Source of the DNA: Aneurinibacillus uraniidurans | Lineage (GTDB): Bacteria > Bacillota > Bacilli > Aneurinibacillales > Aneurinibacillaceae | Assembly: GCF_028471905.1 (NCBI RefSeq) | Contig: NZ_CP116902.1 | Location: forward strand, 2,994,501-3,058,500 | DNA: 64,000 nt | Direction: 5' to 3' | In this document: one piece after another, positions 39,503-42,110 of the stretch | Position numbering within the stretch: the stretch's first letter is position 1 | Layout: each line of letters starts with the position of its first letter | The notes under the pieces: generated by a model | Told to the model about the DNA's origin: nothing | What the model saw: the letters and a program-made list of their open reading frames with translations, nothing else | Databases searched by the model: none | Translations under genes and position numbers: made by a program

Positions 39503-39787
39503 CTACGCAAAAGTAACCACAAAATAACCATAACAGGCAGCATTCACCAAAAATGTTACAACAGCCGCCAGCCACAAACCCTGCATCGTTCGAACTTTGC
39601 CTTTGGTATTAAAATAAAGGGCTGCCGGTATGATATACACCAGTTGGACAAGACCAATCGCAAAAATGGGGATACCACCAAACAGTAAAATCGATGAACC
39701 ACCTGCCACGCTCACGTGCAGCCCAATTGCAAGAAAAATTCCAAGCGCCACACTCCCTTTATCCTCCTCATTTTGATACTCTTCCAT
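39503..39787 (-). CDS. Small three-TM membrane protein (third gene of radical SAM cassette)
   Basis: A 94-residue integral membrane protein with three hydrophobic segments (~14-32, ~36-58, ~70-93) and an acidic N-terminus. No family recognised. AAAGGAG precedes two adjacent ATGs (39790, 39787); the second has better spacing. It begins 14 nt after the radical SAM gene, which itself overlaps the Lgt-like gene, so all three should be one transcript; a membrane partner role is inferred. Confidence 0.6.
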   Translation of the reverse strand: MEEYQNEEDKGSVALGIFLAIGLHVSVAGGSSILLFGGIPIFAIGLVQLVYIIPAALYFNTKGKVRTMQGLWLAAVVTFLVNAACYGYFVVTFA

Positions 39788-39801
39788 CATCCCTCTCCTT
39801 T

Positions 39802-41214
39802 CTAGCCCCGCTGAATTTCCATCTGCTCCCGCATCTCTTGCAGCTGCTCTTCTTTATCATCGCGATAGAACATGTTATACGTGTCAAACGGAATAATACG
39901 TCCGTCCGGATGCACGATATGCACACACGACTTTTTGACAGAGCGCACATCAAAATTATATGGATCAAGAAACTGCATAATGAGCACGCGAAATACATGA
40001 TCGTATCCAAGCGACTTCGGCAGCATCACTTTCGGCAAACAGCACAATAATTCTTTGAGCGACGAAAACGAAGACGCCGGTGAATGATTAAGCGAGAACA
40101 ACTGAAACACTTTTGCTTTCAGTGTTTCATCCTGTTCAAAAACAATCGTATTCCGTCCCCCTTCAAGCAAAATCTCTGGGTCGATCATGCCGGTCAGCGG
40201 CGTTACCTGCTCTCCCATCTTGAGCGCGTAGCCCATCGCCAGGCAGTCCGGGTGACACGGAACCGGAATAATATCTTCTTCGTTAAAAACACCTGACTGG
40301 TCAATAATCATCCGGCGCACTTCTCCAAGTGTCAGACGGTCCTGTACTGGGTCGAACTGTTCGAGGCGACCTGCAATCTGAATCGGCTGGAATGTTACGC
40401 CCCGTACTGCTCGCTGCTTCAAGCCGTATTGAATAATCTCGCCTACTTCGTGATCATTGAGTCCTTTTTTCAGCGTCACCACAAGTGTCGTCGAAATATT
40501 GAACTCATTCAGGTGTTCAATTGCTTTCTTGCGAATATCTCGCAAGTCCGCACCGCGCAGCTCCATCAGCGTATTTTTCTCAAAACTATCAAACTGCAAG
40601 TACAACTCAAATCCTGGCAAATATGATGAAAGACGACGCACAAACTCCCGGTCCTGTGCAATGCGAATACCGTTCGTGTTAACCATCAGATGACGAATTG
40701 GTTTTGTTTTGGCAAGGTCCAAAATCTCAAAAAACTGCGGATGCAGCGTCGGTTCCCCACCGCTAATCTGGACAATATCGGGTGTCCCTTCATTCCGCAC
40801 AACACAATCCAGCATATACTCGATCTCATCAAGTGAACGCCATGTCTGACGCGCAGGGGACGCTTCCGCATAGCAAATTGGGCACTGCAAATTGCATGCA
40901 TCGGTTACTTCTACAATCGTCAGACAGCTGTGCTGTTCATGGTCAGGACAAAGCCCGCAATCATACGGACAGCCATACTTCACCGGCGTGTTCCACACAA
41001 GCGGCATTTCGGATGGCTTACTGAATTCCCGGCACTGCTTGTAATAAGCAGCATCGTTAGAGATCAGTACTTTCTCCATGCCGTGCTTGAAGCATCGCTT
41101 CACCATATAAACACAATCGTTTTCAATGATGATTTTCGCTTCGATTTTCGTATAACAGGTGGAGCAGATACTGTTGGTCAGCTCATAAAATAAATACGGT
41201 CTATTATTCGGCAT
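39802..41214 (-). CDS. Cys-rich radical SAM protein of the Tes/MJ0619-like family
   Basis: A 470-residue radical SAM enzyme. The SAM cluster motif is CNLQCPIC (Cys107, 111, 114), followed by SGGEP (151-155) and VNTNGIRIA. Extra cysteines: 17, 20, 34, 41 (a CxxC...CFKHG site like a rubredoxin knuckle), 82, 86, 89, 97 (GCPYDCGLCPDHEQHSC), then 320, 324 (CHPDC) and 391/392, 430. This layout, with the closing HPDGRIIPFDTYNMFYR, resembles archaeal tetraether synthase Tes and the MJ0619 group, which join lipid alkyl chains. The lipid role here is inferred. ATG 41214 overlaps the Lgt-like gene by 11 nt. Confidence 0.8.
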   Translation of the reverse strand: MPNNRPYLFYELTNSICSTCYTKIEAKIIIENDCVYMVKRCFKHGMEKVLISNDAAYYKQCREFSKPSEMPLVWNTPVKYGCPYDCGLCPDHEQHSCLTIVEVTDACNLQCPICYAEASPARQTWRSLDEIEYMLDCVVRNEGTPDIVQISGGEPTLHPQFFEILDLAKTKPIRHLMVNTNGIRIAQDREFVRRLSSYLPGFELYLQFDSFEKNTLMELRGADLRDIRKKAIEHLNEFNISTTLVVTLKKGLNDHEVGEIIQYGLKQRAVRGVTFQPIQIAGRLEQFDPVQDRLTLGEVRRMIIDQSGVFNEEDIIPVPCHPDCLAMGYALKMGEQVTPLTGMIDPEILLEGGRNTIVFEQDETLKAKVFQLFSLNHSPASSFSSLKELLCCLPKVMLPKSLGYDHVFRVLIMQFLDPYNFDVRSVKKSCVHIVHPDGRIIPFDTYNMFYRDDKEEQLQEMREQMEIQRG

Positions 41215-41968
41215 ATGGAATAACCTCGCTTTTTCTTTGAACTATATGGCGTGCAATGAGGCGGCCGTAATAAAGAAGACCAGCCAGCGCTGCGATCTGA
41301 ATGTTATTGAATCCCCCATATGGATGAGGAGTTGGCTTAATAAAGTCGATGCCAAAGCGAAACAGCAGGTAGCCCACCATAAAAAACTGAAACCCGCTTC
41401 CTTCCCACAGCGTGTAATTCCGTTTCACTCCCCACAATATAAGACCAAGACAAAATAAAAAGACAATTTCATACAATTTTGTCGGGTGCCGCATGATGCC
41501 GTCTCCAAAATCCACGCCAATACTCCAGTCAGTGGCGATTCCATACGTATGGTCAGACAGTCCAGTCAAAAAACAGCCGATCCGTCCAATACTCATTCCA
41601 ACCAGCAGCGGGAACACAAAATCATCACCTGTTGACCGTGTCCATCCGATTCGTTTTTTCATATACTCAACACCGATCAATCCACCAAGCAGACCTCCGA
41701 CGATCGTTTTGCCTGCGAGCAAATAGTGCACATCTGTGATGTGCTGTACAGTAAGGGTAGGCTGTTCGAGCCAGTACAGCGCCTTAGAGCCAAATGCCGC
41801 TCCGGTAGCGGCTCCAATCATAACCCAGATGGCTTTGTCATAAGGAATGCGTTCTTTATTGCGCGTGTACAGGTAAATACGAAATCCAATAAAATAAGCA
41901 AGACATTCAAAGATAAAGTGCGGGTGAAACGTCCAAGAGCCAATATGGATATAATACGGAAATGTCAT
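41204..41968 (-). CDS. Lgt-like (prolipoprotein diacylglyceryl transferase family) membrane protein
   Basis: A 254-residue polytopic membrane protein with about six to seven TM helices. Lgt hallmarks are present: GRIGCFLTG (residues 128-136; canonical GRIGNFxNG) and RHPTKLYE (160-167; canonical RHPSQLYE). Two residues important in E. coli Lgt are changed: the Asn of GRIGN is Cys, and the HGGL His region reads VGGLLGGLIG. So it is likely a paralogue transferring a diacylglyceryl or related group elsewhere, not the housekeeping lgt. GAGGTGAATC precedes ATG 41968. First gene of the cassette. Confidence 0.8.
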   Translation of the reverse strand: MTFPYYIHIGSWTFHPHFIFECLAYFIGFRIYLYTRNKERIPYDKAIWVMIGAATGAAFGSKALYWLEQPTLTVQHITDVHYLLAGKTIVGGLLGGLIGVEYMKKRIGWTRSTGDDFVFPLLVGMSIGRIGCFLTGLSDHTYGIATDWSIGVDFGDGIMRHPTKLYEIVFLFCLGLILWGVKRNYTLWEGSGFQFFMVGYLLFRFGIDFIKPTPHPYGGFNNIQIAALAGLLYYGRLIARHIVQRKSEVIPYAE

Positions 41969-42068: not shown

Positions 42069-42110
42069 AGAAGGGAGCCAGGCAGTATAAACAGCCTGGC
42101 TCCCTTCTTT
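42069..42110. terminator. Bidirectional terminator after paaK
   Basis: Stem AAGAAGGGAGCCAGGC / GCCTGGCTCCCTTCTT between paaK and the Lgt-like gene; long and symmetric. Confidence 0.85.

Follow-up and report, generated by a model that had tools for sequence, protein, structure and literature searches.

The locus studied here raises the question of whether three neighbouring genes of Aneurinibacillus uraniidurans, coding for an Lgt-like protein, a radical SAM enzyme resembling Tes and a small membrane protein, work together, and what they may modify. The window, that is, the whole stretch of DNA analysed, has a length of 64,000 nucleotides, and the features of interest within it are the following:

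41204..41968, minus strand: Lgt-like integral membrane protein, 254 aa (ORF, PF01790 match of 72 bits, conservation in 79 loci)
39802..41214, minus strand: radical SAM enzyme of the Tes/TrsS superfamily, in a clade of its own, 470 aa (ORF, profiles, tree, model)
39503..39790, minus strand: small three-helix membrane protein, third member of the cassette, 95 aa (ORF, alignment)
39533..39535, minus strand: codon for the invariant Cys (C86) in the last helix of the small protein, the proposed target (alignment of 32 proteins)
39795..39800, minus strand: AAGGAG, which probably serves the small gene as ribosome-binding site (sequence reading)

Gene layout and distribution of the pair

The three genes are tightly packed on the same strand, as the original prediction had described, with the Lgt-like and radical SAM frames overlapping by 11 nt. 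The spacing of 14 nt that it gave for the small gene holds when the second ATG (39787), 7 nt behind the AAGGAG, is taken as the start; from the first ATG (39790) the distance to the radical SAM stop is 11 nt. The cassette is flanked by a phenylacetate-CoA-ligase-like gene on its 5' side and by a flagellar-cap-like frame on its 3' side, both named from the sequence. The gap that separates the cassette from the phenylacetate-CoA-ligase-like gene contains an inverted repeat (window 42070-42109), after which no T run follows on either strand. No sigma-70-like promoter was detected in a scan of the region 5' of the Lgt-like gene, such sites being fewer than in shuffled sequences.

To determine the distribution of the pair, 300 Bacilli genomes were searched with thresholds of E <= 1e-100 for the radical SAM protein and E <= 1e-25 for the Lgt-like protein. 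Each gene was present in 20 genomes, the same 20 in both cases, belonging to 11 of 118 genera, and the two genes were adjacent in all of them. Of seven genomes from the host's own genus that were searched, a single one has the cassette, which is therefore patchily distributed. Among the Cyanobacteria (class of G310, 145 genomes) each gene was present in 10 genomes, nine of them common to both, and the radical SAM match without a partner starts at base 2 of its contig. At least 551 relatives of the radical SAM protein were obtained from 84,980 species genomes. The best 80 of them, a set retrieved through two short motifs and therefore under-sampling distant relatives, share 62-79% identity, several come from MAGs, and they belong to Bacillota, Cyanobacteria, Acidobacteriota, Planctomycetota, Verrucomicrobiota, Melainabacteria-type bacteria, Myxococcota and others.

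In 79 of 84 loci the Lgt-like gene was on the same strand as the radical SAM gene and always upstream of it, and this constant order and orientation argues that the pairing is not due to chance. Three of the five exceptional loci (Nostoc, Leptolyngbya and a MAG labelled as Actinomycetota) carry a Lgt-like gene of the cassette type elsewhere or at the end of a contig; the Nostoc genome, in which the pair is unlinked, thus still has both genes. The other two, from draft genomes, gave weaker matches, one to a canonical Lgt and one to another type with GRLGCFLNGCCYG. Pairwise distances of the Lgt-like and radical SAM proteins were correlated (r = 0.92), which, with no control gene in the comparison, establishes co-inheritance and not interaction. 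Overall, these data support the idea that the two proteins, both with the fold of lipid enzymes, constitute one functional unit, and the co-occurrence extends widely beyond this strain. A search of openly accessible journal papers turned up no description of this combination. The absence of a described function in Bacillales had been anticipated; the reach of the pair far beyond this order had been missed.

The two enzymes and their closest relatives

The Lgt-like protein matched PF01790 well above the cut-off (24.9 bits) and reached 58 bits against an equivalog cut-off of 334 bits. Its structural model (pLDDT 91.8) had a sole confident match in the PDB, 5azb (E 3.9e-6, TM 0.58). It thus shares with Lgt of E. 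coli (PDB 5AZB/5AZC) the Pfam family, the fold and, by motif pairing, the residues R143, R239, Y235 and E243, which hold phosphatidylglycerol in the E. coli enzyme and belong to its phospholipid-binding and catalytic network (PMC4728403): the equivalents R129 and R204 are present in 79 of 79 loci, Y200 is conserved in these loci, and the position of E243 is D208 here and Asp or Glu in 79/79. On the other hand, three residues of Lgt are replaced across the family. H103 of the HGG motif corresponds to Val90 (78/79), N146 of the signature GRxGN to Cys132 (79/79) and R246 to Lys211 (79/79), so that HGG(L) reads VGG(L) and GRIGN reads GRIGC, in agreement with the predicted loss of the canonical His and Asn. 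An insertion follows GRIGC, and the pairing of E151 of the signature is uncertain. In E. coli Lgt both H103 and R246 are essential, and the variants H103A/N/Q/R/Y and R246K are inactive (PMC4728403); therefore, the role of the Lgt-like protein may be limited to lipid binding. From its sequence we infer that it would still bind phospholipid and have an acceptor other than the normal lipobox.

A profile search of the complete host genome (3.85 Mb) identified three PF01790 genes, one of them a canonical lgt, so the cassette gene is not the sole lgt. The canonical gene adjoins a hprK-like gene and encodes HGA at the HGG position and GRWGNF. The second paralogue (L002:1447-2280; positions 2611476-2612204 of the host genome) lies beside a serA-like gene, and since it has QGG at the HGG position and a GRDAN signature it may also be no ordinary Lgt.

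The radical SAM protein has the predicted motifs CX3CX2C (C107/C111/C114), CHPDC (320-324) and HPDGRIIPF, and a total of 18 Cys, which is more than had been counted. Its best NCBIfam models, as the profile check showed, are TrsS (NF045646; 324 bits, full length, cut-off 490) and Tes (295 bits, cut-off 450) and not those of an unrelated family. The Tes profile matches acidobacterial Tes over its full length, whereas in nearly all cassette enzymes the main stretch ends at about 311-324 of the model. In a tree of 48 sequences the cassette enzymes formed a clade with 100/100 support and a long stem, apart from both Tes (archaeal and acidobacterial, 98/94) and TrsS; the sister of this clade was a single protein, L168 (93/88). 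The radical SAM enzyme therefore represents a separate clade within the Tes/TrsS superfamily. The assignment to Tes in the original prediction is not supported, given this separate position, the scores under the two curated cut-offs and the loss of Tyr459 and of the Cys of IPFC in every or almost every one of the 84 members. In three acidobacterial genomes (L125, L126 and L127) the cassette enzyme is accompanied by what seems to be a true Tes, matched over its full length with 315-319 bits.

The AlphaFold model of the radical SAM protein (pLDDT 78.9) was most similar in Foldseek to 7TOL (E 6.8e-35, TM 0.80/0.76, 500 columns, 31% identity), and the next match outside Tes had a TM of 0.38. The likeness to Tes or GDGT-MAS (MJ0619; PDB 7TOL/7TOM) thus comprises the whole fold, including the C-terminal domain (TM 0.80), although the model is unreliable at residues 345-396, which include C391 and C392. 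The two enzymes also have in common the ligand motifs given for Tes in PMC9433317, namely rubredoxin CX2CX20CX2H, N-auxiliary CX3CX2C plus His, and RS CX3CX2C; the corresponding sites C17/C20/C41/H44, C82/C86/C89/H92 and C107/C111/C114 were each complete in 84 of 84 members. By contrast, the region of the C-terminal cluster is altered: C320, C391, C392, C430 and D444 are invariant and C324 is present in 73 of the 84, the Cys ligands of the Tes C-cluster being paired with this enzyme by alignment only. The IPFC motif, whose Cys is a presumed C-cluster ligand by alignment and is found in archaeal and acidobacterial Tes, is IPFD (Asp444) in 84/84. Met439 and Tyr459 are stated to be invariant in 1000 archaeal homologues (PMC9433317). 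As universal residues they are missing in the cassette family, which has Ile at the Tyr459 position in 83/84 and Met at the Met439 position in 61/84. Unlike Tes, the cassette enzyme is nearly always beside a Lgt-like gene.

With respect to TrsS, a radical SAM (seleno)protein, the full-length match to its model, the best in NCBIfam, is offset by the position of true TrsS (511-703 bits) in another clade, and the Lgt-like profile had no match at the TrsS loci scanned. Another enzyme to consider is Mss, the membrane-spanning lipid synthase of Clostridia and Thermotogota, a radical SAM enzyme reported to model like Tes (PMC13274423); its likeness to the cassette enzyme comes from this published description, and Lgt is mentioned 0 times in the paper. 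A viperin-type defence function was discarded, since the matches to viperin models in PADLOC and NCBIfam (about 50 bits) are confined to the radical SAM core. In summary, neither cassette enzyme fits Lgt, Tes or TrsS, and both are diverged versions of known folds.

In papers on membrane-spanning lipids, the Tes homologues of bacteria are counted among the possible makers of brGDGT (PMC8941075, PMC11868695). Since the cassette clade is a look-alike of Tes, these gene counts could wrongly include it; the cassette enzyme can be recognised by its Lgt-like neighbour, IPFD and CHPD, which would permit cleaner gene surveys related to paleoclimate.

The small membrane protein and its cysteine tail

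The small protein is a genuine third part of the cassette, with an invariant Cys, and was not defined as such in the original prediction. It adjoins the pair in Bacilli and in Cyanobacteria, and it has no significant match to a known domain in Pfam or NCBIfam. An alignment of 32 small proteins, with a mean identity of 25%, has no invariant residues other than L81 and C86. The latter lies nine residues from the C-terminus in the last helix, which follows a basic loop. In a Paenibacillaceae group the small gene is absent and an unrelated gene is found directly 5' of the Lgt-like gene instead. Its product consists of a zinc finger resembling a B-box (Pfam matches of up to 27 bits) and one C-terminal helix with a tail of the form LLL[AT]ICGxxxF, in which the Cys is 7-10 residues from the end. 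This bacterial B-box-like protein was observed at L035:6948-7244 and at eleven similar loci. At one locus a tail protein of yet a third kind is present in addition; it ends in SACYGFLYLS (LLLMSACYGFLYLS).

In the small proteins the Cys is 5-17 residues before the C-terminus and the last basic residue precedes it by a median of 20 residues (range 15-24). The tail resembles a lipobox in its basic residues, hydrophobic stretch, small residues and Cys at the outer end. It differs in that the lipobox Cys follows an N-terminal signal peptide and the cassette Cys is in the last helix, that position -3 is usually Asn (small membrane protein) or position -1 Ile (B-box type), and that 5-17 residues come after the Cys.

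One fixed rule recognised Cys-tailed neighbours at 71 of the 84 family loci and none at 20 Tes, TrsS and related control loci (Fisher p 4e-13, a value that overstates independence because the 84 loci are related by descent). A stronger point than this p value is that the Cys tail is common to unrelated partner proteins. In 18 further regions from the Bacilli and Cyanobacteria survey genomes, some of species already in the first set, the rule was positive in 13, compared with 4 among 300 other ORFs. The five misses include members that do carry the Cys and have low hydropathy or another position. At about 10 of the 84 loci, mostly of Acidobacteriota, no Cys-tailed neighbour was found, and the tail protein may therefore be elsewhere or dispensable there.

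No other Cys-tail protein was found in the host genome, where a profile of the C-terminal tail (31 positions) recognised only the cassette protein; two further matches (E 0.7 and 4.9) cover only positions 2-18 and miss the Cys. Matches to the small protein in genus g48 of family f31 (E 1e-6 to 1e-9) were also rejected, as they have no Cys and lie beside MFS-transporter-like and diacylglycerol-kinase-like genes.

Proposed modification and alternative explanations

The explanation we prefer, tentatively and at somewhat below even probability, is that of a three-part cassette in which the pair modifies the Cys of the small protein, the lipid joined to this Cys, or both. Judging from charge and hydropathy, the basic-loop rule would place the Cys at the end of the last helix that faces outward, the side where Lgt works. 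The Lgt-like protein might join a diacylglyceryl-type group from phosphatidylglycerol to the Cys, or hold lipid and Cys together, and the radical SAM enzyme might direct a 5'-deoxyadenosyl radical to the lipid chain or to the Cys-bearing segment and create an additional bond there. A membrane protein carrying an unusual lipid on a C-terminal cysteine would result. The radical SAM enzyme may or may not form a lipid C-C bond. The active site of a radical SAM enzyme is expected in the cytosol, and a Cys near the outer face counts against the preferred explanation. Alternatively, the Cys could act as a ligand or form a dimer contact. A broader version, possible though doubtful, is a new kind of protein lipidation, present in several phyla, in which enzymes with the Lgt and Tes folds act on a C-terminal transmembrane Cys signal, portable between unrelated proteins, and yield a lipid-anchored or lipid-cross-linked protein.

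An alternative close to the idea of the original prediction, which we consider unlikely, without being far-fetched, is a pathway for lipids only: the radical SAM enzyme would couple or alter the acyl tails of free phospholipids, giving products of the iso-diabolic or membrane-spanning type, the Lgt-like protein would supply or receive phosphatidylglycerol, and the small protein would be an accessory subunit. The whole Tes fold and the preservation in 84/84 of all three N-terminal and core cluster sites are consistent with it, and Bacillota do have membrane-spanning lipids, attributed to Mss (PMC13274423). Tes also binds phospholipids of bacteria and retains activity as the M439A variant (PMC9433317). 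The loss of residues typical of Tes (IPFD for IPFC, Ile for Tyr459, Met439 position variable) need therefore not end coupling, and this is the reason why the lipid-only pathway keeps some probability. These replacements nevertheless argue against it, together with the separate clade and the Tes encoded by Acidobacteria as a separate gene. The cassette is present in Cyanobacteria and aerobic Bacilli, which, to our knowledge, are not known to make membrane-spanning lipids. Moreover, the invariant Cys of unrelated partners would be left unexplained.

Maturation of a peptide is improbable. The radical SAM enzyme would act on the C-terminal segment of the small protein, for example by making a thioether at the Cys, and the Lgt-like protein would anchor the complex or release a short product. 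A single invariant Cys in a short tail, common to unrelated partners, would suit such a reaction, as would the single protein of this kind in the host genome, as for a dedicated precursor beside its maturase; but the closest structure is Tes, with peptide maturases at TM <= 0.38, TrsS and Tes give the two best family models, the tail is a hydrophobic segment embedded in the membrane, and the tight linkage to a Lgt fold would have no explanation. Still less probable is that the small proteins serve solely as membrane subunits or as redox partners, with a Cys that binds a metal or cluster or gives electrons to the radical SAM enzyme: a small adjacent protein with a conserved Cys, in the B-box type with a soluble part like a zinc finger, would be in accordance with this role, but a lone Cys in the outer half of a helix is a poor electron or metal site and the orientation suggested by the basic loops turns it away from the cytosol.

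If the preferred reading of the Cys tail is true, the cassette would represent a protein-lipid modification that is new and occurs in bacteria common in soil and water, and three genes and one cysteine would make it easy to approach genetically. Several of its carriers are culturable environmental bacteria.

Additional gene clusters with related enzymes were observed. The sister radical SAM protein L168 is encoded at L181:9442-11963 (G502, same broad phylum), where its gene overlaps a Lgt-like gene of another type (GRIGCLLGGCCFG). A small membrane protein with the terminal residues VVLCF is encoded before the latter; on the 3' side are permease, DUF3343-like and YedE-like genes, named from sequence, as in selenium/sulfur clusters. 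In the same genome (L182:5038-16832) two tandem radical SAM genes of the Tes/TrsS superfamily are located in a cluster resembling those of fatty acid synthesis, with FabF-, FabG-, ACP- and FabZ-like, hydrolase and methyltransferase-like genes, a possible unusual lipid pathway. In Acidobacteriota (L183:6069-8455 and L185:180-2378) another branch of the Tes/TrsS superfamily is paired with a SAM methyltransferase-like gene with a SCCAxFYxSD-like motif.
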